Assembly (NCBI GenBank): GCA_947561395.2
Contig: OX387183.1
Span: forward strand, 16,605,402-16,669,401
Source: Buxus sempervirens
Lineage: Eukaryota > Streptophyta > Magnoliopsida > Buxales > Buxaceae
DNA: 64,000 bases
Direction of reading: 5' to 3'
In this document: in pieces, positions 15,335 to 63,803 of the stretch
How the letters are laid out: every line of letters starts with the position of its first letter
Numbering within the stretch: the first letter of the stretch is position 1
Translations under genes and position numbers: made by a program
Notes under the pieces: generated by a model
Seen by the model: the letters and a program-made list of their open reading frames with translations, nothing else
What the model was told of the DNA's origin: nothing
Database searches by the model: none

Positions 15335-15388
15335 TGTCACGGGCTCACAAATTCCCTTGCCTTAACCCGTGCGGCACTTAGACACTCG
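15335..15388 (-). repeat. Remnant of the 3' LTR (terminal 54 bp)
   Basis: Matches 16849-16902 base for base except one position (GGGCTCAC against GGGGTCAC). The match stops at CACTCG, where the internal deletion has its junction. Confidence 0.9.
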
Positions 15389-16804
15389 TGCTACTCCATA
15401 GATGGGCTCCGCTTTCGAGTTTACTGCCTTAAGCCATCCTTGTTCTTCCTTATATTGGAGGCCAAGCCTTTTGGCCTCATTAACTTCAATGAAGTTATGT
15501 GATGCACCTGTGTCTACCAAGGCGCGTGTGTCAAGTGCTCCTACCTTGGCCTTGACGTACATGCGTCCCTTCTTTTCGACTTTTGCTATATTTACCTTAG
15601 CCTTGATGGCATTGAGTAAACGTAGAGATCCCATCTTGATCTCATCTTGTTGGGTCTCCTCCTCATCACCTTGGATTAGGGCTGACAGCTTCGATCTCTT
15701 TGGGCAATCTCTAGCAAAGTGAGGGCCATCACAAAGGAAGCATGTGATTCTAGGTTTGTCACCGAGCTTCCTTTCCTTGTTGAACTTGCTTGCTTTGTGG
15801 AAAGGTGGTTTGTGTCCTTCCTTGGGTTGTCCTGCATTATCTTCCACATTTTCCCCATTGAATTTTTGGAACTTTGGTTTGGAGGACTCACCTTTCTTGA
15901 ATTCTGTTAACGATTCCACAATAGCTATAGCTGATGCAAGATCTGTGGGACTCCGTCGCTGCACTTCAATTTTTGCCCATGATTGTAGACCATCGACGAA
16001 TGTGAAGAGAGACTCCTTCTCAGTCATGTCAGGAATCTCGAGTAGCAACTCAGAGAACTCCTTCACATACTCCCGAATGGTATTCTTGTGGGAGAGACGT
16101 CGTAGCCTGGCCCTTGCTTCATGCTCAGAGTTCTCAGGATAGAATTGCTTTTTAATTTCCCGCTTGAAGTCTTCCCATGTCTCCATAGTGCATACACCAT
16201 GCTTAATATCAGCGTGCCTCCTTCTCCACCATAAAGTAGCCGCATCATCCAAGAAGAGAGGGGCTGTCTTGATCTTCTTGCCTTCCTCATGGACGCCCGT
16301 TGCCTCAAAGTATTGTTCAAGGCTCCATAGGAAGTTGTCAAGCTCCCTTGCATTTCTAGATCCACAATAGCTCTTGGGTCTAGGAATGTCAACCTTAGAA
16401 GAGGAGTGAGAGGTGATCGTACCTTGAGTTATGGCCATTTTGCATAATGACCAATCTCCTCTGATTTCCTTCATTTCTTCTCTAATGGCAGCAATCTCGG
16501 ATCGGACTAAGTCCTTAAGAGCATCCACCTGTGCCTGAACCATCTTGGACACAGCGTTGAGGCCACCTTGCATCTCCCCTTGGAACTCTTCATGCCCATT
16601 CTCGAGTCCCTCGATGCGTTGGTCCATCATCTCAACCTTGTCCTGGCTATCTGCCATGGCTAGCTCCACCCTAGCAAGCCTTGCTTCCATGGTAGACAGG
16701 ATGTCCCTTGACTTATCCTTCCGTACCTTGCCAACATTAGGATTTTCCTTCTCTCGTCCCGAGCATTCGACACCAATGTTGGTGACTTCCGAAGTGTTTG
16801 CCAT
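15362..16804 (-). CDS. Retrotransposon gag-protease polyprotein, truncated
   Basis: The 480-codon frame has a charged, coiled-coil-like N-terminal third. A retrotransposon gag (capsid) domain at about 170-290 carries ATLWWRRRHAD and WEDFKREIKKQFYPENSE. A zinc knuckle of CX2CX3HX4C spacing lies at 355-367, and a retropepsin start with the catalytic DTGA at 431-434. Gag packages the element RNA and the protease matures it. The frame is open and looks undamaged up to the deletion; its final residues (about SVSKCRTG) come from the remnant 3' LTR, which supplies the stop. The polymerase half is lost. ATG at 16804 is the first Met after the primer-binding site. Confidence 0.92.
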   Translation of the reverse strand: MANTSEVTNIGVECSGREKENPNVGKVRKDKSRDILSTMEARLARVELAMADSQDKVEMMDQRIEGLENGHEEFQGEMQGGLNAVSKMVQAQVDALKDLVRSEIAAIREEMKEIRGDWSLCKMAITQGTITSHSSSKVDIPRPKSYCGSRNARELDNFLWSLEQYFEATGVHEEGKKIKTAPLFLDDAATLWWRRRHADIKHGVCTMETWEDFKREIKKQFYPENSEHEARARLRRLSHKNTIREYVKEFSELLLEIPDMTEKESLFTFVDGLQSWAKIEVQRRSPTDLASAIAIVESLTEFKKGESSKPKFQKFNGENVEDNAGQPKEGHKPPFHKASKFNKERKLGDKPRITCFLCDGPHFARDCPKRSKLSALIQGDEEETQQDEIKMGSLRLLNAIKAKVNIAKVEKKGRMYVKAKVGALDTRALVDTGASHNFIEVNEAKRLGLQYKEEQGWLKAVNSKAEPIYGVARVSKCRTG

Positions 16805-16834
16805 ACTATCGCCTTCTTGAGAACTCGAACCAAG

Positions 16835-16848
16835 GCTCCGATACCAAC
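16835..16848 (-). other. Primer-binding site, initiator tRNA-Met type
   Basis: Directly inside the 5' LTR the minus strand reads GTTGGTATCGGAGC, one mismatch from the usual TGGTATCAGAGC complement of plant initiator Met tRNA. Confidence 0.88.
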
Positions 16849-17365
16849 TGTCACGGGGTCACAAATTCCCTTGCCTTAACCCGTGCGGCACTTAGACACT
16901 CGACCCTTTCGACGTGCTAAGTAAGCCTAAACCAACAAGAAAGATTCTCAAGAGAGGGAGAGAGGAACACTAGGAGAACTTGTATTTCACTCAATGATTC
17001 CTTGATGATTTCAGGATGGTTACAAATGAGGGCTCTACCCCTTTATATAGGCCCTCCACCTCCTCAATGGACGGTGGGGATTACAACTATCCAATGGTGG
17101 GGATTAACCCTCTAGAATTCTCTAGGTAAAGTATCTACACAAGGCTTCTTCTAGAAGCTTCTCTCATCTTCTAGAGAACCTTCTAGAGAATACCCACTTC
17201 TCTTGGAGAAGCTTCCCTCCTCTTCTAGAGAACACTACACTCCTCTTGTATTTACACTTATGTAGAGTTCCCTAGAAGCTTCTAGAAATCTCTAGGCACC
17301 ACTTCCATCATCCAAATGTGCATCCGTGGGGTGCTTAGCGTGCTCCAACTTGGCGGGTCGTGACA
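16849..17365 (-). repeat. 5' LTR, 517 bp
   Basis: Starts TGTCACGACCCGCC on the minus strand and ends GTGACCCCGTGACA, so it is bounded by a 6-bp inverted repeat TGTCAC/GTGACA. Contains repeated TCTAGAGAA and AGAAGCTTC words and the box CTATATAAAGG on the minus strand (about 17049-17039), a likely TATA box. Confidence 0.88.
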
Positions 17366-21050: not shown

Positions 21051-24000
21051 ATGGCGAGGATGAAGACAAGAATAACTGACTTGCACTTTGATCTGCTAAG
21101 AGAGATCATGATTTGTCTTGCTAGATCGTCAGATGGAGCTACAAATATTGCAAGGGCAGCATCTGCGTAAGACTTTCAGAATTGGCCATTGATCTAGACT
21201 CGTTGTAAAATGATTCCATTGTTGAACACATTATTATGTTTTCATTTACTATTGACTGTTTTAAAACATTTCTCTGATGACCTCATTTTGTTAGCACACT
21301 TCACATGGAGAGTGATGAGTTTGCTTTACTGTCTATGAATATTAATGTTACATGGACTAAGTTTTGGGTGTTGGGTGCAACTCTGTCTAGTTATTAGACT
21401 CTTCTCATTCTTTTATCACATAATACAGACACTTGGCCCATTTAATATATTTTTTGAACTTATTTATACTAAATATTACTAAAATGTGATACTATATATA
21501 CGTAATATCGATTTCTACTCATTTTAAATTTTGTAATTGAGAAAAGAATGAAAATAAATGAGAAATTTCTTTAAAATGGTGGATGTATCTGTTGAAATAG
21601 AAACTAAGGATCCAATGTGGATTCTGTGCTCATATGATATCATGTTAGAACGGTTTAATAGAAGTACTTCGGTGCAAGTAAAAGAGTCTATGTAACCTGG
21701 ATAAGTATGATACAATTATTATTTTTCCAGCACTCTTACCATTAGTTGTGTTTGGATCGTTGTCTTCTTTATTGCTAGAGAAATGGTAATGTTTGGAAGA
21801 TCTCAGTCAGTGGATGCAGGAGATTCTAGAAAGCCTCTAAATAAATCCTACGAGCTGTCCTAATAATTGAATTTGTTGTTTTAAATAGTTCATAATTTCA
21901 GCATTAAAAAAGTTCTATTTTCAGCCTTAGGAAAGTTTCTGTTTTAAATAACTTCCTATTTTAATATTAAGAAAGTTTATATTTCCTATTTCAGCTTTAG
22001 GAAAGTTTCCAAAGTTTCCTTATTCAACATTAGAAGGCTTCTAATACCTCGTTAAGGAAATCTTTGTAACTTCTACAAAAGGGAAACAGCTGCATAATTG
22101 AAGGCAAAGAACTACTCAGCAAGCTAATAATTTAATAAGAGAGATTATTTAGAGTTTTTGCTCAAGGAGAGAGGCCAAGATCTTGGGGGTTGCACTTCCT
22201 TCCCTGTGGTCTTGCTCTTGGAGTTTTTCATTCCACAATTCCTAGGTTGTTGTTTTTTCATTTTATAGCAGCTTAAGAATTTAATCGAAGAAGTTTGAAG
22301 CTATATCAGTTATCAATATAAAAGGTTAGAACAGTTCTACCATCTCTAATCCGTCATGACTACAAGAATCGGGGTGTCTTCTAGTGTTGAAGGAGGCACT
22401 ACTAGCAAGACACAAGCTGATCCAATACTCGTGATGATGGAGATGTTGTAGAAACTTAAATCCAGATTCGATGCAAGGACAGATGATAAAAACAAATGTC
22501 TATAAAGCCAACAAAGGGGCCTTGAAACCATCATCTAATGCACTGTTTGCTTGTGGAAGGCAATGTTTGATTCAAAGAATGAAGTATACACTAATGGTGA
22601 TTCGAAAGATATTAATTTGCAACCTGTTTACCCAAGGAATGAAAGGCTTCATTCTGATCAGCCCAAAAATGAGCCTGTGGATTGCAGCAATCATGATTAC
22701 ATGATTGGAACACCTATGAGGAATGAGAGGGGTCCTTATCGAGCCTATAATAAGCACCAAGAGGTCAGATTTGACCACATGCCAGATTTTCTTGATTTTT
22801 CCAGCAGGCATGTCATACTTCAAGTCCCAGATTTTTATGGGAAGGTAGAACATTTTGTCTTTAATGATTGGTTTAGTGCAATTGAAGGTTTTTTTTTTCA
22901 TTGTTTGTGATTTTCAGCAAGTCAAAAATTCTAGTTCATGTCCATGATATTGAAGAGAGAAGCTTAAGTATGGTGGCAAAACATTGAGGAGCAATATTAT
23001 TAAATGGGATTTATTGTTGCCGCATGCAGAGTTCCCTTACAACAACTCTATTAATAGGCGCACGGGGATGACACCATTAGAACTTGTTGCTGGCGGCAAA
23101 TCACTAGCACCTATTGATTTGGTCCCTTTTTCCAATCAACACCGAAGTTAGCTAGATTGCAGAGGACTTCTTATGCCACATGCAGTCGATACATGACAAC
23201 GTAAGGAAGAAGATTGCTTTGAGTAATGAAATCTAGGAGGTAGACTTTGAGGTTGAGAAATAGTAATGATCCACTTGAGGCTAGAAAGATTTTCAAGAGG
23301 AACCTTGCACAAGTTGCAATCTAAACATGTGGGACCTTATAAAATACTGAAGAAGTTAGGTTCAAATGCCTACTTGTTGGAGTTACCTGATGGTATGCAA
23401 ATCAGCCTAATCTTTAATATGACAAACCTTACAAATTATTATGGAGATGATGGTATTTCAACAAGCACATCACAACTACGAGTTCCAATTTTTCAGCAAT
23501 AGGCGGAAGAATTTGAATATATCTTGGACAATCAAATTGTTATTACTTGCAAAGGTGGTTATCAAGTCTCTGGTGAAGTGAAAAGGACATCCAGTGTTAG
23601 ATTGTTCATGGATCACTATACTAAGGTTGCAACGTCTAGCTTGTGGCCTTTATGAGTGGTAAATTTCCTTGTACTCATTGAAGTTGAGTATTTGAATGGA
23701 AGAAAAAGTCAATGTAGGAGATTCTAGAAACCTAAAAATAAATTCTATGAGCTGCCCTAATAGTTAAAGTTTTTGTTTTAAATAGTTCCTGATGTCAGCA
23801 TTAGAAAAGTTTCTATTTTCAGCCTTAGGGGAGTTTCTGTCTTAATTTATCCCTTTCACGAAATCTTTGTAACCTTTGTAAAAGGGGAACAGCTACATAA
23901 TTGAAGGCAGAGAATTATTCAGCAAACCAATTGTTAAGAAGATAAATTCCTTAGAGTTTTCACTCAAGGTGAGAGGCCAAGGGCTTGGGAGATGCGATTT

Positions 24001-24607
24001 ATTCCCTTGAGTCTTTCTCGAGTTTTCTAAAATCTGTGGTTTTTTTCTATCAAACAATTTTGAAGCTACATCAAATAGACTTCTAATAACCAAAAGTTGT
24101 CTCTTAAACTCTTGAAGGGCATACCTTTTGTATTGCTTTCCAGGATGAAGTAGTGTTAGACATGGTGTTCTTGCAACCAAAGGTTTGGATTGCTTTTAAG
24201 TGCTGGGCCACTGCTTGACTATATTTTTCTGCAAGTTTAAATTGTTGATGATAATGTCCACTCAGCAAGTTGGGCCGTATATTTGTTCCTCAACTCATCA
24301 CCCTTTCTGAGTTCTTGCCATGCTGCATTACTTGCCTATCATGTTATCCAGATATTTTAGAGTTGAACAAAAATAAATAAACAAATAAGTTGATTTGTTG
24401 GTATCATTTTTCTTACACTGGCAACCTTTTTAATGCAGCTGCAAAGACTTCTTGAAGTGTGCTAAAGATACTATTGTATTGAGAAATGTTGCTTTTGAAG
24501 GTACGAGCCCATTATTTGCACATGGGAAATTGCCGCAGATCATTATCTTCTTGGATAGTTGTGCATGTGCTGGAAATGTGAAAGCTCGTTTCTGCCTAAA
24601 CATTAAG
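21051..24607 (+). CDS. F-box-like protein, partial, two exons
   Basis: Exon 21051-21166 (116 nt, donor GTAAGA) and exon 24439-24607 (169 nt, acceptor TTAATGCAG, donor GTAATT) join in phase to 95 codons. The first gives an F-box-like helix set (TDLHFDLLREIMICLARSS, then ARAASACKDF across the junction). The second ends FLDSCACAGNVKARFCLNI, which resembles the FLxxCxxAGNxxAxxxLG start of the SEL1-type repeats after the F-box in At1g67340-like plant proteins. F-box proteins recruit substrates to SCF ubiquitin ligases. No in-frame stop is seen. The C-terminal SEL1/MYND part was not found after 24607; the next coding exon seen is the TAZ exon at 28942. The start is the first ATG after an acceptor-like site and is uncertain. 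Confidence 0.55.
21815..22318 (+). repeat. 5' LTR of the F-box-intron element
   Basis: Aligns with 23713-24080 in ordered blocks. It is longer than the right copy because of a partly repeated TTTCAGC..TTAGGAAAGTTT segment at about 21900-22020. The exact 3' end is uncertain. Confidence 0.65.
22995..23495 (+). pseudogene. Integrase C-terminal region, Ty3-like, broken
   Basis: The + strand reads HAEFPYNNSINRRTGMTPLE and PIDLVPF, then after stops and frame changes MIHLRLERFSRGTLHKL and GPYKILKKLGSNAYLLELP. These are the usual order of the integrase core end and its C-terminal domain. Several stops lie between about 23150 and 23265. Gag-like wording (VRFDHMPDFLDFS) lies upstream at about 22550-22900 in an open frame. 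Confidence 0.8.
23713..24080 (+). repeat. 3' LTR of the F-box-intron element
   Basis: Begins TGTAGGAGATTCTAGAAACC just after a purine-rich stretch (GGAAGAAAAAG, a possible polypurine tract) and ends near GAAGCTACATCAAATAG. No target-site duplication was identified with the left flank. Confidence 0.6.
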
Positions 24608-26099
24608 GTAATTGTCTTCTTCATTTTGTCTTTTAGTTTTGATGCTTAGTCTATTTCCTAGATTAACAATAAGAAGGGGACCAACTATTTCTATCAGAAA
24701 AAAAAAAAAAAATAGGGCAAAACTATTGGAATCAATTTTTCATCTTAGCTAAGCCAAGTTAGCCAACCATCTACGGATGTGTGTGTAATCAAATTCTAGG
24801 GCCGCCAGCCACTATTTATCATTGGTACTTTTTGTTATGGGCATTTTCCTAGCTTGGCAATTGAACATTTTTCAGGGTCTATTCAACATTACACAGGCAA
24901 TAGCTATTAAAGATTTCTTGACAGTTGCCTAGGCACAAAAGTTGACCACATGGATGCATTTTTGGTCTATGCGAATGCCTGTTATTAATTAGAGTCTGTT
25001 AGCAATTCAACATGCACTTATGCAAGTTCTATTTGGAATTTATAAATACAGATATTATGTAAAGTTTGTACAACATTGTGGTACTCAGCTTAAAAAAAGT
25101 GCAAAATATTAAAGCAATTGTGCTGAGTCCTTGTATCTTAACTCCATGAGGACTAACAGGTCTATCATACAGCACACGACTGCACGTGACATCTGCACCT
25201 TAGTCAGGTAACATATATTATAAAACATCGTATTTTAGAAATAATGGTAGTATAATTAATTTAATAGGAACAACCAGAGAAAAAAAAACAGCTATCGTAG
25301 TAATAGAAATAACAAGAGAAATTGAAATTAGGGATGAGGTTGAAGACACATGTCCTTATCAAGAAAAAATTCAACAGTAGACTGTGGAGTATGGAGAAAA
25401 GAGCTGAAAGGAGGGCGGGTTTTATGGTTATTAGTGTTAACAGTGGGGATAAAGTAAGGGTAGGCTTCCTATAAAAGCGAAGAAAGCTCCTCGAATTCTG
25501 GGTAATAAATAATGATCAACATTCAATACTACAACTAGAGAGCTTTACTTGATTGGTTGGATGCCTTCTCCTTTCTTGACAAGTCAATGGAGCTACAATT
25601 GGTTCTTTTAGGTAGAATAAATGGTTGGATTAATATTTTATTAGTTGGTAATTAGTTATTATCATATAATTAAGCATTAATTTCTTATTGATAACTTTTT
25701 TACATTATTAATCTCTAACATAATTTATAAGCAAGATATAAATGTTGACGTCACTGAAATGGAGGAAATTTTCCAAATTGAGAGAGAGATCTTTCCTAAA
25801 TGATTGACTTTGACATTTAAACTATTGTTTGTTCTCCAATTAGTGAAATTTTTTTCAACATAAGAATATGATAACATACATATATAGTAAAGATACCTCA
25901 AGGGAGGTTTGCATGCATGCGTCAATTATCAATCATCAACATGAAATACAAAGTAATTCTGTATGGGTTAGGGATGCATCATGTGGTGCAAGATGCCACT
26001 TCCCTTTCCCTTTATCCATGCATAAAAAATATAATGCTGGTTGACTACCATAGCCTAGACATTGGATGGCATTATCTCTAATGAAAGGACTTAAGAGGC
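24608..26099 (+). other. Intron or intergenic sequence, nothing recognised
   Basis: AT-rich sequence without recognisable exons. A further F-box-protein exon was looked for and not found. Confidence 0.35.
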
Positions 26100-26415
26100 C
26101 TCTAATTCCTTGGCATTCAATGCTAATGCTACTTCTACCCCCATCATGACCACCCCTGTCCCCTAGTTATCATTATCACTAGATTCTTATCACCATTATT
26201 ACTATCATCATCACTACACCTGGTCTTCACCGCTATCGCTACTACTTCTACCACCACCATGACCACCTGTGACCCTTAGTTACCATCATCACTAGAATTT
26301 TCACCACTGTTATCACTATCGTCACCATAAAAAGTGGTCATTATCACCACAATCATCATCAAATCCATTACCATCACCATATGCACTAGCATCATCACTA
26401 AATGCATATGGCTTA
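26100..26415 (+). repeat. Low-complexity (CACCATTATCACT)n-like tract
   Basis: A degenerate array of CATCA, CCACCA, CATTATTACTA and ACCACC words, strongly biased against G on the + strand. It is a decayed microsatellite or minisatellite. Confidence 0.7.
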
Positions 26416-27239
26416 GGAGTGATTTATGTAACTTTTTTAAATGAATCACCAGAATGTGTCAATCCATCTTTGTCTCCATCACCTATTGTCCGTATTTGTA
26501 GTAGCTCTGGCAATCAATGCAATAGGTTAATCATTAAACATCTAGCTCGTGAGTACTAACCCATTCATATAATGTATTCGCCTCATGATCATCAGTACTT
26601 CAAAAGGGCATCTAATTAATCTTAGGCCAATGCACTTTTATGAAGCTACAATGCATTTCGTTTCGCGGCCAAAATTTCTCTGCGTTTCATTGAAACGCCT
26701 TCTTTTTTTTTTGGAATTTTTTTCATGCGCATGAAACAAACTATAAGACCTCACCAGGACGTGCTGACTGTTTCCTTCCTCTAATTCAAATATTCTCAAA
26801 TCTCCTCCAATCTCTATCAAATCTGTCATAAACCTCTTTCAATCTCAAGATCTTCAGTTTAGAAGCATATTATCCACGATATGGAGTAGCTTTTGGAGTC
26901 CTACAACATTCGTGTGCGACCCGAAACAAAGTAAAATGTGTAATTATTCAACTTTAAAGCCTTATACTTAATAGAATAAGCTGATCTTTGGATATGTAAT
27001 GTAGCAGCACCTGATATATCAATAGGTGTCATCACCTATAATTGTTTTTATGAAAATTACTTTTTTTAATTATTTGTCACGAAAATTGGTAAAAAATAGG
27101 GGAAAATGTATAAAAATACAAAAAATGATGTTAGAAATTAGTAAAAATTACAATGAATTGAAAAGGACAATATACTGTTTTATTTTGTTAATATTTATAT
27201 AATTGACAAATTTTTAAATTACTTTATATATATTAATAT
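26416..27239. other. Intergenic or intron sequence, nothing recognised
   Basis: A minus-strand open stretch at about 26640-26830 has no recognisable domain. Confidence 0.3.
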
Positions 27240-28530
27240 CAAGGTTTACCATTTCAGTGTCGATAGGCGTTCCACCCATCGCCTGAAACGAAATTTCGCC
27301 ACCAGGGTGCTGGATTTTTTGGATTTTGGGGAAATTTCGCCCGCACGCCACTCCGTTTCGCCAGCACGTCAACCCGTTTTGCCAATAAAAAATGAACAAA
27401 TTTTCATTTCCTTCCCCTGTTTCGCCCGTTTCACCCATTTCACTCTGTTTTGCTCGGCAAGCCGTCCCGTTTCGCCGGCACGCCGCCAAAAATCGCTAGC
27501 GATGCAATTAAGGAATTTCTCCCTCAAAAACGCATCGTTACTTCCAAAAAACGAAATTTTGACTGTAAACACTGGTTAATATAACTATTTAAATAATATA
27601 AATATTGTATGTACAATAAAAAATTGGAGACTTAACAAAAACTAATGCACAATTGATTAAAAAATAAAAAATAAATCATTACATTTCAACAATTATTTAA
27701 TTATATAATACAATAAAAGTTTTATTAAAAATAAATTAATTAATATAAATTTACTTATAAATCTGTAAAAATATATATAAATGACAATATGTCGCAATAA
27801 AAATTATAAAATAAAGGTACAACGTTGTGGACATGAAATTTATGATTGTATTTTTTTATTAACATTTTAAATAAATAAAATATTAAAAAATTTTAAAAAA
27901 AATTTACCAAAAAAAATTATTTATGAGAAATGAATAAATTTATATAAATTTATGATTGTTGTGACGTTATTGCTTATCCTCCACCACCGCCGCCTCAACC
28001 ATAGCCAAATAGCTGGCGCAGCTATTATCTTGAGTTCCCTCTTATTTGTATTATCAGAGACACGTCTCAGGAGGAGTATGAGTTCTATATTAGCTTGTTC
28101 AAGAAATATTACATGTATAAGATGTCATGGAAGCGATTTTGCAACTACATCATGAGCAAGTAGGGTTCGAGCCTCCTACATTTCAGTCGGGTTGTCACTC
28201 CTTCCATTTTTTATGGAATCATTCATGATTATATGTATGATTGCTATGTTTGTTAACTTTGTTACTATTTGCATCATCAGTTGTCCTTTTAGTTGTTACA
28301 TTACATTTCATATTTTGTGACACTATGCATGGATTTACCACTTATTCAGTGATTATTTGCACACGTGATTATGTTATTCATGTATTCTAACCTTATATTT
28401 ATATTTTTTATTAATTATCTTTGATTTTCAGCCAAAAATACACAAAATCACTGATTCTGTCAAAATTTCACGGCGTGCCGATTTTTCCTAGGTGCGGCAC
28501 GCCCATCGGTATCAAAATTGAAAACCTTGG
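27240..28530. mobile_element. TIR element with GCGAAAT words, about 1.3 kb
   Basis: Left end CAAGGTTTACCATTTCAGTG with CGATAGGCG; right end, read on the other strand, CCAAGGTTTTCAATTTTGAT with ACCGATGGGC. That is an imperfect inverted repeat of about 30 bases. Near the left end TTTCGCC, CACGCC and TTTCGCCGGCACGCC repeat; the centre is very AT-rich. The words are shared with 18562-19033. No transposase and no clear target-site duplication were seen. Confidence 0.55.
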
Positions 28531-28941
28531 TAGGGAGCATACTTAAGCTATGGCTCTCTCTTTTTCCCACAATAGCACATACTTCTAGAAGGGAAGAGAG
28601 TTAGTTCTTCCCTAAGATTTGTTTTTAAACTTTTAGAAATTCAAGAGCTCTCTATTGTGATACTCCCTTTTTAGGTAGATGAATCATCATTTTGCATCCA
28701 ATCTATTGCTTGAATATTCCAGCTCCATCCATACTGATGGAAGACTTGAATGATATATAGAAAGGCTTCCACCCCCCTGGTGAAAAGAGAATTTCCCTGC
28801 CTATGGATCCTGCCAATGTTTTCCTGGTGGGAATTGCTCTCAAATCTCCTAGGTTGTATACAAAATTATTATGACAATATTATATAGAAACATTTGAGTT
28901 CTATATCTGGCCATGCATGATACGATGCCCTGCTATTGCAG

Positions 28942-29425
28942 ATTAAGAGAACAATTAAACTTCTGATGCTGTATGATCCTCTAATCCATGCTACTCAATG
29001 TTTCACTCCACAATGCCAGTACAATAAATGCCGTGAACTCAAGGGACTTTTCCGCCATAGCTCACAATGCCAAACTCGTGTTTTACGAGGTTGTATTCTC
29101 TGTAAAGCTTTGGTGAATATTCTTAGGGTGCATGCTCTATGTTGCAAAGAATCGAAGTGCAAAATACCTCATTGCAGGTGCATATGCTAATCTCCATTGA
29201 TAAAGAATTCTAGATGTTTTGAGCTTGGTAAAATTTGTTTTTAATATGTTATATTCCAGGGCTGCAAAAGAAGTTTTGAGGGGGATGAAAGTTCTGACTG
29301 ATCCTTCATGGATGGTCACAGTGATGGGGCTGATTACACAGGGAGAGCTGCAGAGGTTGCCGGGAGTGCCGGATGAACTTGTACATAAATATGGACTTCT
29401 TGAGAAGATGTTTGAGCAAAAGTGA
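28942..29425 (+). CDS. TAZ zinc-finger protein, two C-terminal exons
   Basis: Exon 28942-29177 (acceptor CTATTGCAG, donor GTGCAT) and exon 29260-29425 (acceptor ATATTCCAG) join in phase to 133 codons and a TGA. Residues 1-79 form a TAZ domain with the Cys/His set of the CBP/p300 family: LIHATQCFTPQCQYNKC, LKGLFRHSSQC, GCILCK, LRVHALCCKESKCKIPHC. The wording is closer to the TAZ of plant HAC histone acetyltransferases than to that of BTB-TAZ (BT) proteins. TAZ domains bind transcription factors in the nucleus. The last 54 residues (RGMKVLTDPSWM to EKMFEQ) follow the finger where HAC proteins have a basic RRLQQ-type tail and were not recognised. No stops interrupt the exons. Upstream exons of a HAC (PHD, KAT11, ZZ) are absent. 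Confidence 0.7.
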
Positions 29426-29429
29426 CAGA

Positions 29430-31290
29430 AGACGGGTTACTACATCCTGGTTATCCTGAGAAAGGATTCCTTGGTGTCTGATAGCAGTGAAAATCAGTGT
29501 TCAAGAGCTGAGAAATTGTTACACTTTTGTTTCTGTAAGGCTGGGCTTTAGGGAGGGGAAAGAAATCCACCAGGTTTGGTTTATCAAATGCTTTAGATGG
29601 GTACCTTATTTTCATCTTCCATTTCTGACCTTTTCCCTTTACTACTGGGGATTAGCAGCGTTGTGCCCTTTGTTGTGTCAACCATACCACTGATTGAATC
29701 CAGCCAGGGCCAAAAGCCCATGAACAATGAAGCTGAAAGTTGCAGACACCTTAGTTTCTATCCAGTGTGTCCATCGAAGTAATTTCACTCTGTGGATCTT
29801 ATCTACCCATTTTCAGGACTTAAAAGTTTCATGATTCAGATGACAAGATCTGTACCCCAGAGTTCCTATTTTAAAAAGATTGAAGGGTTTGGGTTCTGAT
29901 GAATGTAAATGGATGTCAATTGTCCGGTGAAATGCTGTAAGAGGAGAGAGTTGTAAATGGGACCGAAAGCTACATTAGAGCCTGAACTGACCATAAAGTT
30001 TGGGTTTGGGTTTGGGTTTGGGTTCAATCCAGGCTTCATTCTAGGCTTGATGTTGAGTTCAGCTGAGGCTTAAACTCCATTAATACTGCCTGAAAAGCCT
30101 CAAGAGTGAAGCTCTTGGCAGTTGCTGAATTGCCATTTAATCAAAAACATTCAATAGTGAGGGTCAGCCTGAACCCAACCGAATCTCAGATGATAGAGTT
30201 TAGGGTGAGCTCCAACCAACTCAACCCCACCCTACTTATAGCCCTATGAGAACTGAGTCCAAAATCATCGAAATCCAATTTAACCTACTCTAATTATACC
30301 CCTATAGGATGGAATTTGGTTCTCATTGGAGAATATTCCTTCTTTACGTGTACTTTCAGTCAACCCTAGCCATGTGCTATATCTTATTTAAGGCTGACAA
30401 CAAGTTAGGATTGATCATTGAGCCGAAAGATCAGGCTTCTTGTAAACAACGCCCGCCCACTAAAAAACTATAGAAGGGGTCAAGCTTGCCTGGCCAAGCT
30501 CAATATTGTGTTTTTTTTTTTTTTTTATTATTATTAATTTTCAGATATATTCACATATTGTTCTTCATTAATCTAAATTTAAAAACATTCATAATATCTC
30601 AGAATCTTCAATATACATGATCATCAATCTATATGATTACATAAAATAAAATAGTTACATATACAAATTCATTGTAGACATCCTTGAAGAACGTGATGAA
30701 TCCTGATTTTATGCATGGTAAAAATAGGACCAATCCTAATAGGAATAGAATTCCTTAATATATCAATATATGCATCAGTTAATTACTCAATAACCAATAG
30801 GGTTATTAACCAAGAGGGTAATTTTACTTTCTATTAAAGTAATAAACATTAAGATTAATTTCTTGTTGGTCAAATCAATGGCTAATAATTCAAAATAATT
30901 CACCAATTACATAGGACACAGTCATGTGGAGTCAAATTCTAGGTGATATTACTGTTGCTTAAAGAAAACTTGCAATTTCTTATACCAATAATAAAACATA
31001 TATTGTATCAAAATCATAATTCAAACACTTTATAAACACATTATGTATAAAGTCTTACATTTATAATTTTATGTATAATATATATATTATGAACATCGAG
31101 CGAAGCCAACCTAAGGAATTCCATAGACAACCAAGCCTGTCCTTAAATTTATCATAGCTCTTAAAAATCATGCAAAATTTGGCCTTATTAATAACCTATA
31201 GATGACCAACCCTAATCTCATAAGAAAGACATTTTCCACATGACAAAATGTCTCTTCTAAGACATTATGTTTTCCGAGACCATTTCGTCT
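29430..31290. other. Intergenic sequence with decayed repeats
   Basis: Probable 3' untranslated region of the TAZ gene to about 29980. A four-unit TTTGGG run lies at 29999-30023, then AT-rich sequence with no gene recognised. Confidence 0.4.
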
Positions 31291-44200: not shown

Positions 44201-44321
44201 AAGAGTTTAAATTGGGTACTCGAGACTTTTATGAACGAACGGTGTTGTTTGTTGTTATTTCAATGGATATTGATTGAAGAGACGGGGGAAGGAGAGGGAG
44301 AGAGAAAGGAAGGGAGGAGGG

Positions 44322-58947
<14,626 letters not shown>

Positions 58948-62580: not shown

Positions 62581-62975
62581 ATAAATCCATTTAAAAAATC
62601 TCAAATGTTAATCACTGCGTTAACATTTTCTTCCACAAAGGCACAAAGCAAATATTTCCAAACAATAATATAAATTGCACGCACATGCCCCACCTAACTA
62701 ATAGCATAGATTTACTACTAACATAACCATAGGTAATACAACTATTATTTAAAAATTGTTTTGAAAAACTTCACCAAATGCATTTTTATTGATTTTTAAA
62801 ATCATAATTGATATTAATTAAGTGTTACCAAATGAGTTTTCCATTCACTTATTTCCAAAAACATAAAGAAGACAATTTAAAAAGTTTTTAGTTTTCAAAT
62901 TATTTTTATTATAAAAAATGTTACCAAACAGTCTGTTAGACGCTTCATGTGAACCTAAGGCAGGGTGTTGATAAG

Positions 62976-63803
62976 TAGAGGTGTAAGTAGAGCAGATTGG
63001 ATTGGGTTATGAGAGTTCGAGCTCAACCCAATCTAGGATTTACTAGCCCAAACTCGTCGTTGACCTGCTTTAACCCAAACTCACTAAACCAAAACATTAT
63101 TGTTTGAGTTTAGGTTGGCTTAAACAAAATGTAAGATTTTGAATTTTTTTTATAATTTTTGTTATAATTACAAAATATTGGAATATCATTCATTAAATCA
63201 TCTATCAACATGCTTTTATGTTTGTTTGTTATAAATGCAAATATTACAAATTCCTCTTGATTTGTCCCTTGAATTTGGGAAAAAAACACTTAATTAATTT
63301 ATTTCTTTAAAAATTTAAAATATAATACTAGCTTACTATATTTGTGGTTTTGTATAATCTTTCTTGTGAAATATGTGCTCCCAAATATCACATTCATTGT
63401 AACATATACGTATATGTATGTGAGTATAAAATTATTTATTTGACAAAAATTCATAAACTTATTATCACATGTTAATAATATATGTTTAATAGTTGATTGC
63501 ATAAATACAATGATAATATAAAAGGAAAAGAAAACAATGATACATATATATACAAATAAATATTCACTTATTATATTTGGTGGAGTTTTATACATATATC
63601 TATATGAGAGCGTGTACATAAAGTCAACATTAATTTCAGGCTTTTCGGGTTGTATAGCTTAAACCCAAGCCCAACCCAAACTCAATTTCGGGTTAGAAAT
63701 GAAACCCAATCCAAACCCAAACCCAAACTCAATGCTCACTTCGGGCTCTTATTCGGGTTGGATTGAGCTGGTTTTGGGCGGTCTGGCTAGATTTACAGCT
63801 CTA
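62976..63803. mobile_element. hAT-like non-autonomous element, 828 bp, intact target-site duplication
   Basis: The TIR TAGAGGTGTAA is matched 10 of 11 by the inverted end TTACAGCTCTA. The 8-bp TTGATAAG is duplicated perfectly (62968-62975 and 63804-63811). GGGTTGG/CCAACCC and AACCCAAACCC words crowd both subterminal regions; the middle is AT-rich with no transposase. Confidence 0.9.

Follow-up and report, generated by a model that had tools for sequence, protein, structure and literature searches.

A putative F-box-TAZ gene of Buxus sempervirens carrying a TAZ exon pair copied from a HAC-type gene

The window analysed here, a 64 kb stretch of the Buxus sempervirens genome (C3:16605402-16669401), holds on its forward strand four exons of 116, 169, 236 and 166 nucleotides, 687 in all and divisible by three, which join into a single open frame of 228 amino acids closed by a TGA stop at 29423-29425. 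GT stands 3' of exons 1 to 3 and AG stands 5' of exons 2 to 4, with phases that agree; the exons, GT-AG sites, phases and 228 uninterrupted residues given in the preliminary description were all recovered on recomputation. Exon 1 (21051-21166) contains the start codon and the first half of an F-box-like region in 38 codons and 2 nucleotides, and exon 2 (24439-24607) contains the second half, followed by about 25 residues resembling the start of TPR_27. Exon 3 (28942-29177) encodes a TAZ zinc finger and exon 4 (29260-29425) completes the frame. Intron 1 (21167-24438, GT-AG) harbours Ty3/Gypsy remains, with the integrase tail SH3_Tf2-1 detected by Pfam in 23257-23499. Intron 2 (24608-28941) is 4.3 kb long and includes a CAT/CAC-rich low-complexity stretch (26120-26400, seen by eye), and intron 3 covers 29178-29259.

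The strength of the donors was ranked, using a donor matrix drawn up by hand, among the 612 GTs found in 18-31 kb of the window. The exon 1 donor (TGC/GTAAGA) is weak, as 220 of the 612 score as high. The exon 2 donor (AAG/GTAATT), in phase 0, is strong (2 of 612 as high, itself counted) and that of exon 3 is good (17 of 612). Exon 2 also contains another strong donor, AAG/GTACGA, which would end the exon at 24500 in phase 1 and so fail to match exon 3.

Elsewhere in the window, positions 44322-58944 of the forward strand hold a plant hexokinase gene; its introns are long, and the gene extends over about 14.6 kb from the start codon to the last exon, with Pfam matches to Hexokinase_1 in 44274-44594 and 45373-45981 and to Hexokinase_2 in 58453-58944. 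On the reverse strand, a Ty3/Gypsy gag-protease open frame of 498 amino acids was identified by Pfam at 15365-16858. A viral-contig scan matched a pattern in five stretches, none of which was confirmed.

We examined the F-box-like start proposed in the preliminary description. The first 95 residues gave no Pfam match at E values up to 10, the F-box models PF00646 and PF12937 included, and a search of the PDB returned one chain at the chance level (E 1.3). In plants, one group of F-box proteins carries TPR_27/Sel1 repeats and sometimes a MYND finger, At2g35280 and At1g67340 presumably being examples; a sequence that we take to be of this kind, reconstructed by hand, was used for comparison. This reconstructed sequence scores 4e-14 for TPR_27 in Pfam and 9e-4, under the cut-off, for F-box-like. 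The joined F-box half aligned with it colinearly, with 21 of 81 residues identical, at 25.8 bits and a pairwise E of 6e-5, the best of 300 shuffled queries reaching 20.8 bits, and the likeness to this one reconstructed sequence runs through DLL..I, CK.F and FL..CA.AGNV.A. As the match spans the exon 1/2 junction, it supports this splice, though the exon 1 donor is weak. In contrast to the F-box/TPR_27/Sel1 proteins, the TPR_27-like part of the window gene stops after about 25 residues and is followed by the TAZ finger, and the joined protein has no MYND match. When the whole window was searched with the reconstructed query, the best place was exon 2 (25.0 bits, E 0.074; next 20.4); exon 1 was hit at 19.6 bits by another part of the query and was not picked out as an F-box. 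Among the candidates scored in its own genome (2 of 2), the F-box half found just the two exons of the window, so that no close relative is visible to that search. The F-box-like start is therefore plausible on its colinearity with one reconstructed sequence, although no curated F-box model matches it.

The TAZ half is recognised by a curated model. The zf-TAZ domain (PF02135) is the only Pfam domain of the joined protein, scoring 35.6 bits against a cut-off of 25 (E 1.3e-8) with its best stretch at residues 109-173; KAT11, PHD, ZZ and TAZ1, which belong to HAC acetyltransferases, and BTB were not detected by Pfam. In the PDB, 15 matches were listed at E values up to 1, and every one is a TAZ2 chain or fusion of p300/CBP, the best at E 1.6e-13. 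AlphaFold run on exon 3 alone, without an alignment, gave a mean pLDDT of 53.4 and was uninformative. In the genome (676.5 Mb in 247 contigs), a zf-TAZ search that reads exon by exon, in which nine candidates were scored and counts are lower bounds, placed the domain at at least eight places: two HAC-type, five BTB-TAZ-like and the one in the window. The two HAC-type places, 18 kb apart on contig C21, correspond to the TAZ1 and TAZ2 domains of a single HAC-type gene, the only such locus seen in the search, and acetyltransferase-like and ZZ-like exons were recognised by eye between and around them. The other five loci are BTB-TAZ-like as judged from their sequence. Two of them (L003 and L004) look, by eye, near-identical at and near the TAZ exon, including the 3' flank, a likeness that points to recent duplication, either of the segment or of the genome.

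The window TAZ is 53% identical to TAZ2 of its own genome's HAC gene over 75 amino acids (E 7e-25) and 34-41% identical to the five BTB-TAZ-like loci, so that the earlier assignment to a CBP/HAC-type finger is supported and can be narrowed to HAC TAZ2 as the nearest relative among the TAZ loci of this genome. All 12 zinc ligands of the three HCCC sites lie in exon 3 and match the columns of HAC TAZ2 that we take to be ligands. With the HAC and CBP/p300 acetyltransferases, the window gene shares the TAZ finger, the ligand spacing, the intron after the last ligand and the acceptor phase; it differs in showing only the 3' end of HAC, as judged among the best 80 of 114 tblastx pieces. That the gene is instead a BTB-TAZ gene with a missed BTB part is very improbable: five such TAZ loci are present in the genome, but the identities reject this origin, zf-TAZ is the sole domain found in the joined protein, and the intron aligns with that of HAC.

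The relation to HAC extends to the non-coding DNA. Positions 28974-29387 are 69% identical to the 3' end of the HAC gene over 426 columns, intron included. Intron 3 is homologous to the last HAC intron, the two giving a local score of 23.0 where the best of 500 shuffles reached 7.5. The 58 bases before the exon 3 acceptor (28884-28941) align with the HAC intron that precedes TAZ2 with a score of 20.0, where the best shuffles reach 15.0 (span of 100 bases), 16.5 (200 bases) and 18.5 (400 bases). At 1000 and 2000 bases the shuffles reach 24.0 and 28.5, and no further likeness between intron 2 and HAC was seen in this comparison. Downstream of the middle of exon 4, four of five spans scored below the shuffles against HAC; the fifth (1500 bases) gave 23.0 versus 21.5, at 30515-30541, far from any colinear place. 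Exon 3, which has 18 extra nucleotides relative to HAC shortly 3' of its acceptor, is a copy of the penultimate HAC exon and exon 4 a copy of the last one. Since the intron aligns as well, the last two HAC exons are, by this comparison, copied as DNA and not via RNA, and a retro-copy of HAC is rejected.

The exon 3 acceptor, TTGCAG, sits at HAC's own acceptor and is in phase 0 in both genes. The 24607/28942 junction, which the preliminary description had regarded as uncertain, thus relies on a splice site inherited from HAC, whose phase is fixed, and it is met by the strong, in-phase donor of exon 2.

A blastn comparison of the window with the 30 kb HAC region gave 12 pieces, one being the HAC 3' end and the rest judged to be repeats. 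Against the same region, the other pieces among the best 80 of 114 from tblastx were weak or repeat-like, and parts of HAC other than the 3' end were not seen among those 80. A whole-genome-duplication block was considered and rejected: between the 64 kb window and 230 kb around HAC, 22 blastn pieces were obtained at E values up to 1e-8, of which 21 were judged repeat-like and the remaining one is the TAZ segment, and the three hexokinase stretches found nothing better than E 0.2 in the 230 kb block.

We then compared exon 3 with HAC codon by codon. Over 67 aligned codons the nucleotide identity is 70%; 38 residues are common and 29 are changed, with no stop. The second codon position is the best kept (81% vs 64% and 64%). 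The dN/dS pairs are 0.31/0.78 with NG86, 0.34/0.62 with YN00 and 0.31/0.52 with LWL85; as the YN00 and LWL85 dS values are lower than that of NG86, the ratio is 0.4-0.6. Taken over the whole exon the constraint is loose, and it centres on the fold. Neutral change was simulated under two models with 4000 runs each, one in which HAC changes only at synonymous sites and the window copy is free, and another in which the window copy alone changes. In the first, milder model, the 12 ligands were kept in none of the 4000 runs (mean 5.6), the frame stayed free of stops in 5.35% and at least 38 residues were kept in 7%; in the second, the values were none of 4000, 3.9% and 0.15%, the ligand test being biased in both, because a TAZ domain without its ligands would have escaped notice. 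Exon 3 looks to be under selection on these sequence comparisons. Exon 4 does not look selected at the protein level: 8 of its first 30 residues are shared with HAC, where the final two or three of the 30 already fall at or beyond a frameshift, and the identities at the three codon positions (16, 18 and 20 of 30) carry no codon-position signal. Two extra bases relative to HAC shift the frame, so that roughly the last 27 residues are new and the frame runs on beyond the position of the HAC stop.

These observations bear on the two main rivals of the reading preferred below. In one, the four exons would be decaying pieces, a HAC fragment and the remnant of an F-box gene that fall in phase by chance and make no working protein. 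The frameshifted, unconstrained exon 4 agrees with this, as do the weak exon 1 donor, the transposon debris in intron 1 and the TPR_27 continuation, which was not found in the window, intron 2 included, with the one reconstructed query, a weak test. An exon 3 that is open and retains 12 of 12 ligands at about 70% nucleotide identity to HAC, when none of 8000 neutral runs kept the 12, speaks against it, and we consider decay unlikely. In the other, exon 3 would belong to a TAZ-only gene, a HAC 3' fragment with its own promoter or another upstream exon, whose short TAZ protein would vie with HAC for its activators; the F-box-like exons would then be part of a neighbouring gene or a remnant. The apparent selection on exon 3 would hold whatever lies upstream, and the ninth codon of exon 3 is an in-frame ATG that offers a possible start at 28966. 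Against this stand the exon 3 acceptor and the 58 or so intron bases before it, whose retention would be expected of an exon that is spliced to one upstream. Moreover, 24608-28941 yielded no further recognisable coding exon when examined by ORF listing, by Pfam searches of two open stretches and with the one reconstructed query. We consider a TAZ-only gene unlikely as well. The rest of an F-box gene within intron 2 was also sought with the reconstructed query and not found, again a weak test.

The best-supported reading is a chimeric gene in which two F-box-like exons are combined with a captured HAC TAZ exon pair and whose product is a putative SCF adaptor. We give this reading an even chance, the 4.3 kb length of intron 2, the presumed junction of the two sources, counting against it; that the F-box-like and TAZ halves are joined in one protein is likely. 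The copied segment would have comprised HAC's penultimate and last exons, the intron separating them and the tail of the intron before, and it would have landed downstream of the two F-box-like exons, which the inherited phase-0 acceptor would allow to be spliced in frame to the TAZ exon. The F-box-like part of the chimeric protein may then dock on SKP1/CUL1, making it an SCF adaptor, and the TAZ finger may pick the substrate. In HAC, TAZ binds activators such as NPR1; a study of Arabidopsis (PMC6294559) reports that, in yeast, each of the two TAZ domains of HAC1 binds the C-terminal region of NPR1, and NPR1-like coactivators are for this reason the first candidate substrates. The outcome could be destruction of TAZ-binding activators or competition with HAC for them.

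Such a protein would share its logic, a cullin-docking part plus a TAZ reader, with the BTB-TAZ proteins BT1-BT5, CUL3 adaptors that read their partners with TAZ. It would differ from them in using F-box and CUL1 rather than BTB and CUL3 and in having a TAZ domain from another branch. Plant BTB proteins are CUL3 adaptors, and BTB-TAZ proteins are one of their subfamilies, according to the accessible sections of a review (PMC13075204). The phrases 'F-box and TAZ', 'F-box-TAZ', 'TAZ and F-box' and 'F-box TAZ' were not found in the texts searched, and the two domains are not joined in the available portions of the papers that match both zf-TAZ and F-box. In the portions available of the main texts of F-box family surveys of soybean, chickpea and wheat, the word TAZ is absent, and MYND and Sel1 are listed. 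We tentatively suggest, as a possibility of less than even weight, a lineage-specific F-box-TAZ protein that is the SCF counterpart of the BTB-TAZ/CUL3 adaptors, in which a coactivator docking site became a degradation receptor for its partners, NPR1-like ones included. Should both halves be made as one protein, the result would be a protein-destruction adaptor of a new kind. Expression of the chimera would further mean that plants brought TAZ under two cullin systems independently, CUL3 via BTB and CUL1 via F-box, and that in the second case the donor gene is still recognisable at the DNA level. The locus would then offer a testable example of how a coactivator domain can become a degradation receptor and of how a shared intron phase permits exons to be captured.

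Repeats are also shared between the window and the surroundings of HAC. The repeat at 62975-63803 is 86% identical to an inverted copy on C21, some 1.6 kb beyond the 3' end of HAC, and the same HAC block has a further partial copy of 465 bases (90%). Pieces of 54844-55731 are 73-75% identical to a stretch inside a HAC-gene intron, and the translation of that stretch resembles, by eye, a LINE-type reverse transcriptase.
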